Assembly (NCBI RefSeq): GCF_000765475.1
Contig: NZ_JRHO01000010.1
Location: 124,001-188,000 of the forward strand
DNA: 64,000 nucleotides
Reading direction: 5' to 3'
From: Methanococcoides methylutens
GTDB lineage: Archaea; Halobacteriota; Methanosarcinia; Methanosarcinales; Methanosarcinaceae
Shown: positions 30,174 through 53,734 of the stretch, piece after piece
Numbering within the stretch: position 1 is the stretch's first letter
How the letters are laid out: every line of letters begins with the position of its first letter
Made by a program: the position numbers and the translations under genes
Notes under the pieces: generated by a model
Seen by the model: the letters and a program-made list of their open reading frames with translations, nothing else
What the model was told of the DNA's origin: nothing
Database searches by the model: none

Positions 30174-30890
30174 TTACTCTTCACTTTCTGTGATCTCTTC
30201 CTCAGCCTCTACAGCAGGTGCTGGGGTCTCAACTGGGTAGGATTCAATGTAGCTTACTTTGTCAAGGCCTACGTACTCTACAAGTTCGTTTGCAACTCTT
30301 CCCTTTGCCATGAGCCAGCGCTGGTTGAATGTAAGCATTGCAGGTACCTCAATAGCTGCCTTGTTATCATTTACCTCTACTTCAAGGTCTGGGACTCCGG
30401 TGTAAAGTGCAAGAATGCCTTTTACCTTCTCAGTAACGTCTTCGATCTTCTCATCGATGGTGTACTCGTAGGTAACTTCCTTGCCTGCAAGTGGGTGGTT
30501 GAAGTCAACACGTACCCTGCGTCCGATGACCTTTGTGACGGTACCTCTCTTGTTGTCGATCTCGATGTTCATGCCAGGGTATGCTTTCTGGTCTTTGAAC
30601 TTTGTAAGGGACATGTTCTCAACAAGTTTTGGGTCGTGGTCGCCAAATCCGCCTTCTGGTGGGATAATAACGTTTCCGCTGTATCCAACTTCCTTGCCTT
30701 CAAGATCAGCGTCAAGACCTGCAATGGTGTGTCCTGCGCCCACGATTACTATGTCGCCACCGTACATGCCGCGTGGGTTGTAGATCTCGTTCTCTTTTGC
30801 AAGATCTTCATTGGTTGTATCAAAGATCTGGTCTCCGTTGAACTTTCCGGTGTATGACAGTTTAATAACGTCTCCTTTTTCTATTGCCAT
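30174..30890 (-). CDS. FKBP-type peptidyl-prolyl isomerase, long archaeal type
   Basis: A 238-residue protein starting at MAIEKGDVIK (30890), an ATG preceded by GAGTTGAT. The FKBP domain (residues about 1-155) includes VIKLSYTGKF, a loop GMYGGDIVIVGAGHTIAGLD, IPPEGGFGDHDP and RVRVDFNHPLAGKEVTYE, with an IF insertion between about 85 and 130 as in SlyD-like enzymes. A C-terminal domain (160-220) and a Glu-rich tail follow. It folds proteins as a chaperone and prolyl isomerase. It is monocistronic, just beyond tRNA-Ser. Confidence 0.93.
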   Translation of the reverse strand: MAIEKGDVIKLSYTGKFNGDQIFDTTNEDLAKENEIYNPRGMYGGDIVIVGAGHTIAGLDADLEGKEVGYSGNVIIPPEGGFGDHDPKLVENMSLTKFKDQKAYPGMNIEIDNKRGTVTKVIGRRVRVDFNHPLAGKEVTYEYTIDEKIEDVTEKVKGILALYTGVPDLEVEVNDNKAAIEVPAMLTFNQRWLMAKGRVANELVEYVGLDKVSYIESYPVETPAPAVEAEEEITESEE

Positions 30891-47066: not shown

Positions 47067-47351
47067 GGGACCCCTCTTTTAAGTATTGATATTATGATCT
47101 ATAATTTTCATTTATTAATTGACAATATATAATATCATATTTTATTTAACTCTTATACCTATAATGTATTTACATAAAATTAAATACTTCCAGATTAATC
47201 AATCTTTACAAACATCTTTTATTTATATTATTCACCCTCTAGAATTTCACAATAGTGAATACATATATATGTTACGAAGCCATATGCTATGAAAGCTATA
47301 TGGTATAGCTATATAGTATATAATGTACTATAGCATCTCGTAAGTGATATT
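47067..47351. other. Divergent promoter region with operator-like palindromes
   Basis: About 285 AT-rich bases. It contains ATTTCACAATAGTGAAT (47244-47260), TATATATGTTACG (47263-47276), an imperfect CCATAT...ATATGG repeat (47281-47304) and a TATA near 47313-47320 for the regulator, whose leader would be about ten bases. The surface protein promoter lies on the minus strand within the first 100 bases. Confidence 0.5.
47244..47260. promoter_or_regulatory. Candidate operator ATTTCACAATAGTGAAT, site 1
   Basis: A palindrome with arms TTCAC and GTGAA around AATA. An identical 17-base sequence lies in the thi4 promoter region (50346-50362). It lies 92 bases before the regulator gene at 47352. Confidence 0.6.
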
Positions 47352-47672
47352 ATGAATCTGGAAACTCCCTGTCAGGCAGTTGTATGGGATATCCTCCCGG
47401 CTATCCGTGCAGCTCTTGCAATGGAACTTGTAAAGAACGGGATCGCACAGAAAGAAGTTGCAAAGATGTTTGGAATGGCTCCTTCTGCCGTGTCTCAATA
47501 CATGACAAAAAAACGAGGCTATCGTATAGAATTTGATGAAGATGTGAAAGAGTCGATATCTCGTCTTGCTCTTGAGATACAGGAGGGTAAGGTGGATAAT
47601 GTCTCTGCAAAGATCTGTGAGATCTGCAGGTATTTAAGAAGAGGTGAGGGTGCCTGCCCTGTGGAAGATTGA
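47352..47672 (+). CDS. Small XRE-type transcriptional regulator (ThiR-like HTH)
   Basis: A 106-residue protein. It opens NLETPCQAVVWDILPAIRAA, followed by a helix-turn-helix, NGIAQKEVAKMFGMAPSAVS and YMTKKRG. A C-terminal segment holds three Cys (KICEICRYLRRGEGACP) that could bind metal or an iron-sulfur cluster. The P-C-x-V-V plus HTH arrangement resembles COG2522 and the N-terminal part of the archaeal thiamine regulator ThiR, but the ThiN ligand domain is absent. A palindrome shared with the thi4 promoter lies upstream, so autoregulation and control of thi4 is a reasonable hypothesis. Confidence 0.8.
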   Translation: MNLETPCQAVVWDILPAIRAALAMELVKNGIAQKEVAKMFGMAPSAVSQYMTKKRGYRIEFDEDVKESISRLALEIQEGKVDNVSAKICEICRYLRRGEGACPVED

Positions 47673-47725: not shown

Positions 47726-50020
47726 TTATTCTTCATTCTGTTCTTTTTCTGAAACTTTCATCTCATCAATTGGTATGGTGAAGGTGAATGTACTTCCAGC
47801 TTCTTTTTTGCTTTTTACCTCTATATTGCCGCCATGTAGTTCTACAAAGGTTTTGACAAGAACAAGTCCAAGTCCGGTTCCCTGGTAATTTCTGGAATTA
47901 TCTGATTCGATCTGCTTGAATGGCTGGAATATCTTTTCAATATTTTCCTGAGCAATTCCAATACCTGTGTCAGTAACACTGATTTTCAGTTGATTGTCAA
48001 CACAGGTTACTATCAGGTGAACTTCTCCTTTTTCATCTGTAAATTTAATCGCATTACTTAGAAGATTGTAGAGGATCTGCTTGAATTTTGTTTTGTCTGC
48101 ATTTATGGTGGATATGCCCTCTTCAATATTTATCGCAAGCTTGATAGCCTTTTTTTGTGCAAGAGGTTTTATGATTGTTACAACATTTGTGACGATCTCT
48201 CTCACATAAAATACCTCATAATGGATATCCATTTTTCCGGCTTCGACTTTTGAAAGATCAAGTATGTCATTAATAAGGTTTAGAAGATGCTTTCCACTAT
48301 TCAATACATTATAAATGTATTTTTCCTGCTTTTCATTAATTGGACCTGCAATATTTTCGAGAAGTATGTCTGAAAAACCAATTATTGAATTAAGTGGTGT
48401 CCTGAGTTCGTGACTCATGTTTGCAAGGAACTTGCTCTTTGTTTGATTAGAGGCTTCTGCTGCTATTTTTGCATTAATTATCTGGTCTTCGGCATTCTTT
48501 CTTTCCGTTATATCAACGATAATTCCCTGCATGTAATTTAGATTATTATTTTTGTCAATTTGTAAGAGTGTCTGTTCTTCAACCCAACGAATTTCTCCTG
48601 ATCTTGTTATTATCCGATACTGGCTAAAATGTGGGGTTCTTTTTGTAATACTCTCTGAAAGTATGTCTTCTACGCGTTCAAGATCATCAGGGTGGATGAT
48701 GTCTGCATAATTTATTTTTTTTGATATGAAATCATCAGCAACATAACCAAATAGTGCTATGTTCCCGGATACAAGTTCTACTGGCCATCCTTTTTTATTC
48801 TTCCATTTAAAGACAGTTACAGGACTGTGGTCTATTATATCAGCCATTTCTTCATTAAGTTCGCTTGATCTTTGGAGATTATCGAGCAGGTGGTTTAATC
48901 CGACTGTAAATTCTCTAAAATCAATGTCAATCTCAGTATTTGCTCTGGCATCAAAGTTTCCGGTTAAAGCAGAATCTGAAATCTCTTTAAAGTCATTAAC
49001 AATATTTTCTATATTTTTGCTCACAGTTTTTGCTGTAAGGGACGCAACCAGTCCCATGAGCAATATTGCGATCATCAATATTGTAATTAATTCATTCTTA
49101 AGGTCTATAACTCCTTTGAACATATCATCTTTCGGAACTACAAGTATGAATGAATACTTTCCTTCTTTTGTAGGTTCATAGAATGCGATAACCTGCTTTC
49201 CTGTACTCGGATCTACTGTTTCGATGTGACCACTTTTTCCTTCTTTGATGTCATCTGCCATCATAGTGATATCATCATTGAATTCGTAAAGTGTTTTTTC
49301 ACCGATCCATTCTTTTTTGGTTGGATGTGAAAGGATAAGACCCTCGTTGCTGCTAAGTATGGCATATCCGCTCTGGAATGCTGTAATGTTACTTACAATG
49401 CTGTCCATGCCATTGAGAGTTACATCGACACCCCCAATTCCAATGAATTGTCCGTCACGGAATATCGGTGTTGAGTGACTGATGATTATTTTTTCTGAAT
49501 ACCAATATGGCTCCGTTAGTACGTAATTTCCTGTATGCTTTGGTAATTTGTAGTAATCAAGTTCTTCATAGTTCTGTAAAGGATCAAGGCTTATATTACC
49601 ATCCAGCTTATTCCAGTATGGGATATACCTGCCAGTTGAATCATGGCCTGATGTATTTGCATATTCCATGTCTCTCCCATCATATGCATTGGGTTCAAAA
49701 CAGACGTATGTCCCAACAAGCTCCGGATTTTTTATAAGTATCTCCTCCAGGAGCTTGTTTGCTTCCTCCCGATCGCAGATAAGGCTACCGGAGATTGTGT
49801 CTGCAATGATTTTTGAAAATGCATGATATTTCATTTGATCTGCATTGAATTCGTTTGCATGCTTGCGGGCAATTTCTATGGATTGCTGGTATGCAAGTTC
49901 TTCATGCTGGGATAATGTTGTTGAGATTATTAGCAAAGCTGATGCTATAAAAATTAAAAAGGTTCCTGCAACAATATAAAATGTAAGTTTCTTTCTTAAT
50001 GAAATTTCTTTTAGATCCAT
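47726..50020 (-). CDS. Membrane-bound sensor histidine kinase (dCache-HAMP-PAS)
   Basis: A 764-residue kinase. TM1 lies at about residues 13-35; an extracellular double-Cache domain (about 40-305) includes YVCFEPNAYDGRDMEY and GIGGVDVTLNGM; TM2 is at about 308-330, followed by a HAMP-like helix. A PAS domain (about 395-515) then leads to HisKA with NMSHELRTPLNSIIGFSDIL and the ATPase with NLLSNAIKFTDE, VTDTGIGIA and YQGTGLGLVL. The Cache domain should bind a small extracellular ligand. No partner response regulator is nearby. Confidence 0.93.
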   Translation of the reverse strand: MDLKEISLRKKLTFYIVAGTFLIFIASALLIISTTLSQHEELAYQQSIEIARKHANEFNADQMKYHAFSKIIADTISGSLICDREEANKLLEEILIKNPELVGTYVCFEPNAYDGRDMEYANTSGHDSTGRYIPYWNKLDGNISLDPLQNYEELDYYKLPKHTGNYVLTEPYWYSEKIIISHSTPIFRDGQFIGIGGVDVTLNGMDSIVSNITAFQSGYAILSSNEGLILSHPTKKEWIGEKTLYEFNDDITMMADDIKEGKSGHIETVDPSTGKQVIAFYEPTKEGKYSFILVVPKDDMFKGVIDLKNELITILMIAILLMGLVASLTAKTVSKNIENIVNDFKEISDSALTGNFDARANTEIDIDFREFTVGLNHLLDNLQRSSELNEEMADIIDHSPVTVFKWKNKKGWPVELVSGNIALFGYVADDFISKKINYADIIHPDDLERVEDILSESITKRTPHFSQYRIITRSGEIRWVEEQTLLQIDKNNNLNYMQGIIVDITERKNAEDQIINAKIAAEASNQTKSKFLANMSHELRTPLNSIIGFSDILLENIAGPINEKQEKYIYNVLNSGKHLLNLINDILDLSKVEAGKMDIHYEVFYVREIVTNVVTIIKPLAQKKAIKLAINIEEGISTINADKTKFKQILYNLLSNAIKFTDEKGEVHLIVTCVDNQLKISVTDTGIGIAQENIEKIFQPFKQIESDNSRNYQGTGLGLVLVKTFVELHGGNIEVKSKKEAGSTFTFTIPIDEMKVSEKEQNEE

Positions 50021-50331
50021 TCAAAAACTCCATCTTTTCTAAAAACAGGATCAAATATTTTGATTTATTGCTAATTATATTATTGTAATTGAAATGATGT
50101 TAACATATATTATGCTACATAAATGTATGGAAGTGACCCGACTATCGATATTAAATTTTGCTAAAATTTCCTACATTTGGCTATGCTCTTATGCAAAAAC
50201 GATTTATCTATTACTTATTGATTATATTTTAAAGTATTTGAAACCAATCTCTCTTTATGGGCGCTGTAAATATTTTACGCTGTCTGCTTCTTTAATTTGC
50301 TTACAACATAATCTATATATATAATAAATAC
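50021..50331. other. AT-rich spacer upstream of the thi4 promoter
   Basis: About 310 bases between the kinase start and the operator pair. It includes the kinase promoter on the minus strand and the TATA CTATATATATAATAAAT (50312-50328) for the forward transcript, predicting a start near 50345. Apart from these signals nothing is seen. Confidence 0.5.
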
Positions 50332-50362
50332 AATTCACGATTGTGATTTCACAATAGTGAAT
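50332..50362. promoter_or_regulatory. Candidate operator pair at the thi4 promoter, site 2
   Basis: Two adjacent palindromes: TTCAC-GATT-GTGA(T) (50334-50347) and TTCAC-AATA-GTGAA (50348-50361), 14 bases centre to centre. The second copy lies in ATTTCACAATAGTGAAT, identical to 47244-47260. They cover the predicted transcription start about 25 bases after the TATA. Confidence 0.65.
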
Positions 50363-50374
50363 CGGTAACAATTT

Positions 50375-50443
50375 GCTGGATGGCAGAGTGTTTATGTGTC
50401 TGACTGCAGATCGGAGTACGTAAATTCGATTCTCACTCCGGCC
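50375..50443 (+). pseudogene. tRNA-Cys-like element (GCA) in the thi4 leader
   Basis: The sequence folds as a tRNA-Cys: acceptor GCTGGA with TCCGGC (six pairs including G-U), D arm GCAG...TGT, anticodon arm TCTGA-CTGCAGA-TCGGA (five pairs, anticodon GCA) and T loop TTCGATT. It is degenerate: the acceptor has six pairs, the T stem has two A-C mismatches (including position 53-61), and the second of the usual D-loop GG pair is T. It lies between the operator pair and the thi4 start, on the same strand. It may be a pseudogene, an odd functional tRNA, or a leader element. Confidence 0.6.
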
Positions 50444-50548
50444 TTTCAAATAAGATGTAAGGCAAAATGTCTGGCTCTTTTTATGAACCGGCTCAAAATT
50501 GCACTTTCTGGCAACTTACAGATCATCTCTATTAAAATGGGTGAAGAT

Positions 50549-51340
50549 ATGAATCAATTCGCACAAGCAACTGAAAAAGATATTACGCGTTCGATAGTTG
50601 AAGAATTTCTTGGAGATTTCCTTAATCACATAGAAAGTGATGTGATCATCGTTGGCGGAGGGCCAAGTGGTCTTGTGGCAGCAAGGGATCTTGCTTCCAA
50701 AGGCCTAAAGACAGTTGTGCTTGAAAGCAACAATTACTTTGGTGGCGGCTTTTGGTTAGGTGGCTACCTGATGAACAAGGTTACAGTAAGAGCGCCTGCA
50801 CAGAGGATTTTTGATCAGCTTGGTGTTCCTTACAAGGAAGTACCTGATATAAAGGAAGGTCTCTATGTTGCAGATGCACCTTCTGCCTGTTCCAAGTTGA
50901 TCTCAGCTGCCTGTGATGCAGGTGCTTTCATGCTGAACATGAACAAGTTCGATGATGTTGTTCTCAGGGATGGACGTGTTTGCGGTGCTGTTACCAACTG
51001 GACACCTGTCTCAGCATTACCACGTGCCATAACCTGTGTGGATCCTGTGGCTATCGAGACTAAATGTGTTATTGATGCAACAGGACACGATGCGGTCGTG
51101 GCCAACTCCCTTGCAAAACGTGGTCTGGTAGACCTTGAAGGCTTCTTAGGAATGGATGTTGATAATTCCGAAGATGCTGTGGTGAACAACACTTCAGAGC
51201 TTTACCCGGGACTCGTAGTTACAGGAATGGCCGCAGCTACATGTTTTGGTCTTTCCAGAATGGGTCCTACCTTTGGTGGCATGTTGGAATCCGGTGTAAA
51301 AGCTGCAAAGATCGCTGAAGAGATCGTAAGGTCCAGATAA
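50549..51340 (+). CDS. thi4: Thiazole synthase Thi4 family protein
   Basis: A 263-residue protein; ATG 50549 (MNQFAQATEKDITRSIVEEF) follows GGGTGAAGAT. It has an NAD-binding motif VIIVGGGPSGLVAARDLASK, the GGGFWLGGYL loop, and a C-terminal GATCFGLSRMGPTFGGML-like segment. Thi4 makes the thiazole precursor of thiamine from NAD, glycine and a sulfur source. The position that is Cys in yeast (sulfur donor, suicide enzyme) and His in Methanocaldococcus jannaschii is Cys163 here (ITCVDPVAIE). The leader of about 200 bases carries the tRNA-Cys-like element. Ribose-1,5-bisphosphate isomerase-like relatives are a less likely alternative. Confidence 0.9.
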   Translation: MNQFAQATEKDITRSIVEEFLGDFLNHIESDVIIVGGGPSGLVAARDLASKGLKTVVLESNNYFGGGFWLGGYLMNKVTVRAPAQRIFDQLGVPYKEVPDIKEGLYVADAPSACSKLISAACDAGAFMLNMNKFDDVVLRDGRVCGAVTNWTPVSALPRAITCVDPVAIETKCVIDATGHDAVVANSLAKRGLVDLEGFLGMDVDNSEDAVVNNTSELYPGLVVTGMAAATCFGLSRMGPTFGGMLESGVKAAKIAEEIVRSR

Positions 51341-51556: not shown

Positions 51557-52726
51557 ATGTTCGACAAAACCGTATATCTTGATAATGCTGCCAGTACTCG
51601 ATTGGATGAGAGGGTACTTGAAGCAATGAATCCGTATTTTTTTGATACTTATGCAGTTGCTACTTCCGAATTTGGTTATTCAATGGGAATTGAATCCAAG
51701 GAGGGGCTTGAAAGGTCCCGGAAAGTGATTGCCTCGGCCCTTGGTGGGGATGCCAGCGAGATAGTGTTCACTTCGGGAAGCACTGAATCAAGCAACATGG
51801 CAATAAAGGGGGTCCTTTCTGCATTGAAGGGCAAGAAGGATGATCACCTGATCGTTTCCCGGCTGGAAGACTTTGATGTTCTGAACACTGCAAAAATACT
51901 TGAGAAACAGGGTTACAAGGTTGATTTCATAGAAGTTGACAGTGAGGGTGTCCTCGACCTTGATATGCTTAAGGCAGCGATCACTCCTCAGACTGCCCTG
52001 GTCTCTATCCAGCATGCTAACCAGGAGATTGGCACCCTGCAGGATATCAAGGCTATTGCAGAGGTATGTAAGGAAAAGGAAGTGCTGTTGCATACCGATG
52101 CAACTCACAGTTTCACAAGGGTCCCTCTCGATGTGAGCCAGGTTTCTGTTGACCTTGTTACGGTATCAGCACATACTATTCATGGCCCACGTGGGGTTGG
52201 AGCCCTGTATATAAGAGAGGGTACTCCTATCAACAAATGGATGGACGGAGGCTTCCAGGAGTCTGACCGGCGTGCAGGTATTGAGAACATCCCTGGTGCC
52301 GTAGGTTTTGCAAAGGCTGTTGAACTGGTAACTCCTGAGGAGAACGAACAGCTTAAAGCAATGAGGGATCACATTATTGAGAGAATAAGTGCTGAGATAC
52401 CCAGTGTCACGCTTAATGGTAGTGCTACAAGCAGATTGCCACAGAATGCTAACCTTACTTTCCACTATGTTGAAGGTGAATCCATTACGTTGCATCTGGA
52501 TATGATGGGATTCGCAGTGAGTACCGGTTCGGCATGTTTCAGTCGCTCCCTTGAGGCAAGCCACGTTATACTTGGTATAGGGGGTGACCACGAGCGGGCC
52601 CATGGTTCATTGCGTTTCAGCTTTGGAAGGTTCAACACCATGGAAGATGCAGATTCTATTATTGATGCGTTGAAGGAAGTTGTTGTTAATCTAAGGGCTA
52701 TCAGCCCGCTGTCAGAAGATAATTAA
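51557..52726 (+). CDS. NifS/IscS-like protein lacking the PLP lysine
   Basis: A 389-residue class V aminotransferase-fold protein close to cysteine desulfurases (VYLDNAASTRLDERVLEAMN, FTSGSTESSN, HTDATHSFTRVPLDV, STGSACFSRSLEASHVILG). The lysine that binds PLP in the S(A/G)HK motif is Thr207 (SAHTIHGPRGVGAL). The PLP-stacking His equivalent to E. coli His104 is Asp105, Asn155 is Gln156 and Gln183 is His184, whereas the persulfide cysteine is present (Cys327). A. fulgidus IscS also lacks this lysine. It lies 26 bases before an IscU gene, so a scaffold-partner role is likely; desulfurase activity is doubtful. Confidence 0.88.
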   Translation: MFDKTVYLDNAASTRLDERVLEAMNPYFFDTYAVATSEFGYSMGIESKEGLERSRKVIASALGGDASEIVFTSGSTESSNMAIKGVLSALKGKKDDHLIVSRLEDFDVLNTAKILEKQGYKVDFIEVDSEGVLDLDMLKAAITPQTALVSIQHANQEIGTLQDIKAIAEVCKEKEVLLHTDATHSFTRVPLDVSQVSVDLVTVSAHTIHGPRGVGALYIREGTPINKWMDGGFQESDRRAGIENIPGAVGFAKAVELVTPEENEQLKAMRDHIIERISAEIPSVTLNGSATSRLPQNANLTFHYVEGESITLHLDMMGFAVSTGSACFSRSLEASHVILGIGGDHERAHGSLRFSFGRFNTMEDADSIIDALKEVVVNLRAISPLSEDN

Positions 52727-52752: not shown

Positions 52753-53388
52753 ATGCAATTCCCATATAGTAAAGAGGTACTTGAGCATTTCAAAAATCCG
52801 CATAATGTGGGCAAGATGGAAGATCCGGATGGAAAGGGTCTCGAAGGCAGTGCAGCATGTGGGGATATGGTTGCTGTTTATTTGAAAGTGAATCCTGATA
52901 CCCTCATAATTGAGGATATCTCATTCGAATCATACGGTTGTGCATCCAACATTGCCACAGCTTCCATCATTACTGATCTTGCAAAAGGCAAGACCCTTGA
53001 AGAGGCCAAGAAGATCACATGGAAGCAAGCTGCAGAAGCACTTGGCGGACTTCCTGCGGTAAAGGCACACTGTTCTGTTCTGGCAGTGGAAGGTCTTAGG
53101 TCAGCTATCCGTGATTACGAGGAAAAGCATGGAATGGTCGTGGAGAAAGAGCCCACTGACGAGGAAGTTGTCAAAAGGCGCCTGAAGCATGTGATGAACC
53201 CGATAAAAGGTCTGGATATCATCAGGACCGAACTTGTGATGAAGATCGCGGTCGATGAAGGTAATGTACGTGTAGTGCTTGACCTACCTTCCACTCACCA
53301 GTTCGCAGCTGCAATAAAAGAGGACATCACTGAGAAACTTGAATCTCTCTGGGATGTTGAAAGTGTCACGGTGGATTTCATCTCCTGA
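52753..53388 (+). CDS. IscU-like scaffold fused to a DUF59/MIP18 domain
   Basis: A 211-residue protein. Residues about 1-130 are IscU: EVLEHFKNPHNVGKMEDPDG, AACGDMV with Cys and Asp ligands, YGCASNIATASIITDLAKGK and the third Cys in KAHCSVLAVEGLRS. Residues about 138-211 match the DUF59/MIP18 fold (VVKRRLKHVMNPIKGLDIIR, then VRVVLDLPSTHQF and a VESVTVDF end), which in other systems helps insert or transfer clusters. Such a fusion joins assembly and delivery in one polypeptide. It follows the iscS-like gene by 26 bases. Confidence 0.85.
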   Translation: MQFPYSKEVLEHFKNPHNVGKMEDPDGKGLEGSAACGDMVAVYLKVNPDTLIIEDISFESYGCASNIATASIITDLAKGKTLEEAKKITWKQAAEALGGLPAVKAHCSVLAVEGLRSAIRDYEEKHGMVVEKEPTDEEVVKRRLKHVMNPIKGLDIIRTELVMKIAVDEGNVRVVLDLPSTHQFAAAIKEDITEKLESLWDVESVTVDFIS

Positions 53389-53446: not shown

Positions 53447-53734
53447 ATGGAAATTAGGTCTATTACTCCCTGTAAAAGCGGTCCGGATATTCAGCATGTT
53501 ATAGCGCAGCTTGATAATGAGATTGATATCTCAAAGGCATGTGAAGCTCTAAAAACAGAAGAAGGGAATTTGATCAAATTCTTGCGTTGTTCTGAGGAAC
53601 TTGGAGCCATCCGTTTCACTTCCGGTGCTATGATGGTTCTTGTTTATAAGAGTGGCAAAATCACTGTAAGGCATGCTGCGAGTGAGGAAGTTGCAAAGGG
53701 GCTGCTGGATAGGATAGCTGAGCTTGTGGAATGA
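53447..53734 (+). CDS. Small hypothetical protein, 95 residues
   Basis: A soluble alpha/beta protein starting MEIRSITPCKSGPDIQHVIA, with two separate Cys (TPCKS, KACEALK) and a third (LRCSEE). The middle contains EEGNLIKFLRCSEELGAIRF and the end KSGKITVRHAASEEVAKGLL. It lies 58 bases after the IscU-DUF59 gene, so association with Fe-S assembly is possible. It may be a relative of small iron-sulfur-cluster-associated proteins but is not assigned. A 18-base repeat array begins at its stop codon. Confidence 0.6.
   Translation: MEIRSITPCKSGPDIQHVIAQLDNEIDISKACEALKTEEGNLIKFLRCSEELGAIRFTSGAMMVLVYKSGKITVRHAASEEVAKGLLDRIAELVE

Follow-up and report, generated by a model that had tools for sequence, protein, structure and literature searches.

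A tRNA-Cys-like element stands in the leader of thi4 in Methanococcoides methylutens, which raises the question of whether it acts on this gene as a leader RNA or belonged to a tRNA gene with a role of its own. The original prediction suggested that a tRNA-Cys mimic might report cysteine supply to thi4, and it named a plain pseudogene as the simplest alternative. We followed up the locus in the stretch of 64,000 nucleotides that was analyzed as a whole (the window) and in related genomes. In the best reading of the data, the element is the decaying relic of a second tRNA-Cys gene that was under operator control. As a relic, the window locus is of interest chiefly as an entry point to a wider system. 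Its features are listed in Table 1.

Table 1. Features of the thi4 locus and of the candidate regulator gene, in window coordinates
Feature	Position	Strand	Basis or remarks
Palindrome TTCACAATAGTGAA, predicted autoregulatory operator of the regulator gene	47246..47259	.	Sequence search
Small helix-turn-helix protein, 106 aa, predicted palindrome-binding regulator	47352..47672	+	Pfam HTH_3, conserved cysteines, co-occurrence
AT-rich TATA-like stretch TATATATA, probable archaeal core promoter	50314..50324	+	By eye; conserved in leader alignment
Operator pair TTCACGATTGTGAT + TTCACAATAGTGAA	50334..50361	.	Two adjacent palindromes, 50334-50347 and 50348-50361
Degenerate second-class tRNA-Cys	50374..50444	+	Anticodon GCA, U73; U1.C72, A51.C63, A53.C61 mismatches, G19 to U
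thi4, Cys-type (C163) ADP-thiazole synthase	50549..51340	+	Pfam Thi4, E 5.1e-65; TIGR00292
NifS/IscS-like cysteine desulfurase	51557..52726	+	Downstream of thi4, same direction
IscU/NifU-like scaffold with C-terminal FeS_assembly_P domain	52753..53388	+	Downstream of desulfurase

The element had been described as a near-complete tRNA-Cys with anticodon GCA, and covariance searching agreed. The Rfam tRNA model RF00005 (gathering score, 29 bits) matched positions 50374-50444 end to end on the plus strand with 32.2 bits (E = 0.008 for the window), hence above threshold, and was the sole Rfam match at this site. ARAGORN left the window copy uncalled and called that of the sister genome, which carries the same two T-stem mismatches. 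In the alignment, the anticodon, G37, and U73 are all kept, and 3 of 20 counted pairs are broken, so that the cloverleaf is incomplete. Two of these are the A-C mismatches previously seen in the T stem, now placed at positions 51-63 and 53-61. The third bears on the acceptor, which was thought to have six pairs after the loss of one base from each arm: a seventh pair is indeed unpaired, but as a U1.C72 mismatch arising from the change of G1 to U, and both arms are full length, with seven positions on each side and zero deletions. Similarly, the D-loop G reported as lost is absent, but by substitution of U for G19, which leaves the G18 G19 pair of conserved bases incomplete. In an alignment of the window element and 15 relatives, which add 14 distinct sequences, 98.0% of the cloverleaf cells were paired, compared with 82.3% in shuffles, and 13 pairs showed changes on both sides. 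All six unpaired cells came from two copies, that of the window and that of the sister genome. Plain folding of the 71-mer gave no cloverleaf for the window copy and was dropped as a test, because intact relatives also failed to fold into one.

Sequence comparison placed the element nearer to a second tRNA-Cys class than to canonical tRNA-Cys, and its matches in this class are tRNA-Cys genes of other Methanococcoides and of Methanohalophilus, Methanohalobium, and probably Methanosarcina. The genome of the window species has 46 tRNA matches. Canonical tRNA-Cys is present there in three identical, intact copies, none of them on the contig of the window; one or more stand shortly 3' of a stretch that, read by eye, we take to be 5S rRNA. 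Since these three genes exist, the window copy is redundant for decoding. It might nevertheless retain weak tRNA-Cys function, perhaps with the help of base modification or editing, given that its anticodon, G37, and U73 are intact, its Rfam score exceeds the gathering score, and ARAGORN still calls the sister copy, which shares the T-stem mismatches; in principle, both A.C pairs could be regained by C-to-U editing. The three broken pairs, the loss of G19, and the further hits that differ between sister and window copies make this improbable.

Comparison within Methanococcoides, where G000 denotes the genome of the window species and G001 its sister, supports a history of decay. Intact copies in thi4 leaders reached Rfam scores of 53 to 62 bits versus 32.2 in the window, and low values were also obtained for G001 (38.5), for the second copy in G005 (35.6), and for G003, G008, and G009 (<29). 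The two broken T-stem pairs are common to G000 and G001, and further hits differ between both. In a tree of thi4-nifS-iscU, G000 groups with G001, and G003, G008, and G009 form a second clade; because degenerate copies fall in both clades, the tRNA must have decayed at least twice. Early or weaker signs of decay were seen in G010 and in the second G005 copy. In Methanolobus bombayensis, a decayed tRNA-Cys remnant follows two palindromes, of which one is exact (L324:6620-6760, minus strand), and this decay, which left both palindromes in place, is independent of that in Methanococcoides. As a separate possibility, an integration-site remnant seems unlikely: no integrase was seen, and where G004 and G005 have copies in tandem, these are entire promoter-operator-tRNA units.

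Constraint on the tRNA differs between intact and degenerate copies. Among G004 (M. vulcani, with two tandem intact tRNA-Cys copies), G005, and G007, the tRNA shows 0 to 1 differences in 71 positions versus 21 to 34 of about 97 to 113 in spacer and leader, and intact pairs have fewer tRNA changes than downstream coding divergence predicts (P = 0.0002 to 0.0008). Between G000 and G001, 4 of 71 tRNA positions differ versus 1 of 116 in the flank (Fisher P = 0.03, with only four changes), and the tRNA shows no significant constraint by the coding-divergence yardstick (P = 0.38). The leader of these two genomes is unusually similar when set against coding divergence (P = 0.001), for which recent exchange and local constraint are candidate explanations. 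The plain pseudogene of the original prediction is the alternative that fits best.

Thi4 in the window has the active-site Cys that had been assigned to it: residue 163 is Cys (TCVDP), and the solved archaeal enzymes have His at the same position. A second Thi4 in the same genome, encoded on contig C9 (L251, G000:C9:324500-327500), is a His-type paralog (LHVDP). Cys-type Thi4 is known from some methanogens, and Haloferax volcanii HvThi4 likewise has Cys at the active-site position (PMC4215014). Unlike HvThi4, the window enzyme occurs in a methanogen, beside a His-type paralog and under a predicted sulfur operator. The tRNA-like element precedes thi4 on the same strand, as stated before, at a distance of 104 nt from the ATG at 50549. 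Its reported position behind a promoter and an operator pair was borne out by sequence search for the pair, and the archaeal promoter was recognized by eye. Neither an intrinsic terminator nor a bacterial promoter was detected in 50200-50560, with a promoter scan whose range excludes archaeal promoters. A transcription start about 25 nt past the TATA-like stretch would fall within the operator pair, which shows 0 to 1 differences per 27 to 28 bases among six Methanococcoides; an operator of the TCACNATNGTGA type is present upstream of the window element.

Control of thi4 seems to have no need of the tRNA, because the second Methanococcoides clade lost the tRNA fold and kept operator and thi4. 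In G008 and G009 of this clade, the operator pair and thi4 are retained with a degenerate or partly deleted tRNA, thi4 of a Methanolobus genome (G060) directly follows the operator pair with no tRNA, and in Methanohalobium (G027) thi4 has operators and no tRNA there, the tRNA being found at another gene. Intact orthologs of the element in other genera precede SepCysS, MetY, or other genes, and so the conserved unit is operator plus tRNA, not tRNA plus thi4. Leaders that keep operator and thi4 behind a broken or missing tRNA, and unrelated genes behind intact copies, make it very improbable that a tRNA-Cys mimic senses cysteine or tRNA charging and acts on thi4 in cis, even though the element sits on the coding strand with the operator on one side and thi4 on the other, Thi4 belongs to the Cys-consuming type, and the part of the leader next to thi4 hardly differs between G000 and G001 (1 difference in 104). 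Beyond this sister pair the proximal leader is unconserved, it folds like its shuffles (z = -0.21), and no T-box or other leader RNA family was matched in Rfam at the element site in the window. T-box and other tRNA-sensing or tRNA-like leaders also place a tRNA-related structure 5' of an amino acid or sulfur gene; unlike in T-box leaders, the structure here is a tRNA gene under a conserved operator of its own, and leaders that lack it keep operator and gene. Absence from the leaders of relatives and decay of the stems, which the original prediction had itself named as speaking against its proposal, are to a large extent what we found.

The association of operator and tRNA-Cys extends well beyond Methanococcoides. 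In the loci read, tRNA-Cys genes typically follow one or two TCACAATTGTGA-type palindromes at a distance of 20 to 60 nt. An earlier, loose operator-to-D-arm pattern matched nearly every genome and was replaced by a strict pattern of palindrome, short gap, and tRNA D-arm letters, which occurred in 43 of 186 genomes of the order and gave one match in the reversed control. The only strict match outside Methanosarcinaceae (G091) has no tRNA and is probably a chance match. In the fetched loci, 68 of 81 tRNA-Cys records were operator-linked, which describes a biased sample and is not a rate; these loci were picked via tRNA, operator, or regulator, and some overlap or are duplicates. Operator-linked tRNA-Cys genes were found across Methanosarcinaceae and in some Methanomicrobiales, and they belong to several sequence classes, in Methanolobus including the canonical one. 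Frequent neighbors are SepCysS (TIGR02539, 399 bits), metY, nifS, iscU, and nadA, as well as, judging from their sequences, probably metX, a ThiF/MoeB-like gene, and a LarE-like gene. Palindrome, tRNA-Cys, and SepCysS follow each other in the same order in the Methanoregula-type loci L311, L320, and L335. Locus L255 (G168:C130:4800-11000) has five tRNA-Cys genes within a single 4-kb stretch, four with their own operator, ahead of SepCysS.

In the genome of the window species, exact palindromes outside genes occur only ahead of the regulator gene, the tRNA/thi4 unit, and a TusA-like gene on contig C10. This gene, for a TusA/YedF-like sulfurtransferase, lies behind an exact operator at 1088 (L238, G000:C10:1-8000), with a SepCysS paralog nearby on the opposite strand. 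SepCysS paralogs are present in this genome, in which no CysRS scored over the cut-off. Its SepCysS-metY-metX operon is located on contig C4, apart from the window tRNA, whose neighbor is thi4, and no TCACAATTGTGA-type operator was found upstream of the operon in the stretch read.

A candidate regulator is encoded in the window by a gene with its own predicted operator. The protein matched Pfam HTH_3 with E = 2.7e-4, below the family cut-off, and searches yielded no NCBIfam family and no useful PDB sequence match. Its AlphaFold model is all-helical and moderately confident (mean pLDDT, 75), with no PDB fold match at E = 0.001 or better. Orthologs with about 50% identity or more are present in genera with operator-linked tRNA-Cys. 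Three of their cysteines, at positions 7, 89, and 92, never vary, and Cys 102 is almost invariant; the four-Cys protein is probably an Fe-S or metal/redox sensor. The strict operator-tRNA-Cys pattern was found in 41 of 79 genomes with the regulator versus 1 of 33 without it. TCACN4GTGA occurs within 200 nt upstream of the regulator in 57 of 78 loci (0.014 expected per 200 nt), usually 40 to 60 nt ahead of the coding match. From these patterns, we infer that the regulator binds the palindrome.

Methanogens possessing SepRS and SepCysS make Cys-tRNA from Sep-tRNA. Because Cys-tRNA is thereby formed from phosphoserine on tRNA-Cys, the tRNA would, besides decoding, act as a carrier for cysteine synthesis. 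We consider it probable that a sulfur/Fe-S regulon exists in which tRNA-Cys is a regulated member and that the window copy is a decaying part of it. In this regulon, the four-Cys HTH protein would sense Fe-S, metal, or sulfur status and, on the TCACAATTGTGA palindrome, would cover the start site and repress transcription. Its targets might be its own gene, nifS/iscU, and the units in which tRNA-Cys precedes SepCysS, metY, and metX. The tRNA, once processed and charged with phosphoserine, would give rise to Cys-tRNA via SepRS and then SepCysS, and tRNA-Cys dosage would be raised together with SepCysS. In Methanococcoides, the operator-tRNA unit may have been placed before thi4-nifS-iscU, away from the SepCysS-metY-metX operon; the tRNA would then have become dispensable and decayed in separate lineages, with the operator pair still controlling thi4. 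More tentatively, we propose that a dedicated sulfur/Fe-S repressor controls specific tRNA-Cys genes, that the tRNA serves as an inducible metabolic cofactor in archaea forming cysteine on tRNA, and that in Methanosarcinaceae and some Methanomicrobiales tRNA-Cys genes of several classes were recruited in this way and later decayed, with a relic in the window.

The carrier role may not hold everywhere. In genus g7, which we take to be Methanosarcina, the operator-linked class (L155, L157, L160, and others) mostly has A37, C38 rather than G37, A38. As m1G37 has been reported to be a determinant for both SepRS and CysRS (PMC9976931), a carrier role is uncertain in this genus. Intact operator-linked tRNA-Cys could instead supply extra decoding capacity for Cys-rich Fe-S proteins, which would agree with the recruitment of several classes under the operator, the canonical one of Methanolobus among them, and with the mostly A37-bearing Methanosarcina class, which may be a poor SepRS substrate. 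That such tRNA genes recur immediately ahead of SepCysS, metY, and metX in two orders points to synthesis, and we regard the decoding explanation as rather unlikely.

Parts of the proposed regulon resemble known systems. Clade VII SepCysS genes cluster with tRNA-Cys and sulfur genes (Mukai et al. 2017, PMC5424206), and tRNA-Cys there adjoins SepCysS and sulfur genes as in the intact relatives described here, whose SepCysS clusters are likely of this clade VII kind. Unlike in those clusters, the window tRNA is separated from SepCysS and is decaying, and the accessible part of the paper does not mention a palindromic operator, an HTH protein with four cysteines, or a tRNA-Cys in front of thi4. 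Extra tRNA-Cys isoacceptors beside the main one also occur in the system of PMC9976931, in which SepRS and CysRS prefer different isoacceptors; unlike that system, the window genome has no detected CysRS. In the open literature, we found no report of this operator, this regulator, or transcriptional control of tRNA-Cys. Generally, tRNA genes are regarded as constitutive housekeeping genes. If the proposed regulon is real, tRNA supply would be a regulated step of amino acid synthesis, through an operator that stands before tRNA-Cys in two methanogen orders and is common to SepCysS, cysteine desulfurase, and methionine synthesis genes. This would also provide a testable reason why several tRNA-Cys isoacceptors are kept per genome, and it names a candidate regulator of sulfur/Fe-S metabolism for which we found no report in the open literature.

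Some further features of the window vary among relatives or stand apart from the regulon. A 95-nt tRNA-Tyr, perhaps with an intron, was called by ARAGORN at 30223-30317 on the minus strand, where Rfam was silent at the gathering score. Between the regulator gene and the tRNA/thi4 unit lies a histidine kinase gene (47726-50020, minus strand), present at the locus in G000, G001, G005, and G007 and absent in G003, G004, and G010, which indicates insertion or loss. Two other Methanococcoides genomes, G002 and G006 (L200, L201), have no thi4 at the locus, and short matches to the thi4 3' end lie between regulator and nifS. Downstream of iscU, window positions 53447-53734 encode a 95-aa protein with a single TBP-like half (PF00352, E = 3.8e-5), a gene also seen in this place in the other Methanococcoides loci that we read.
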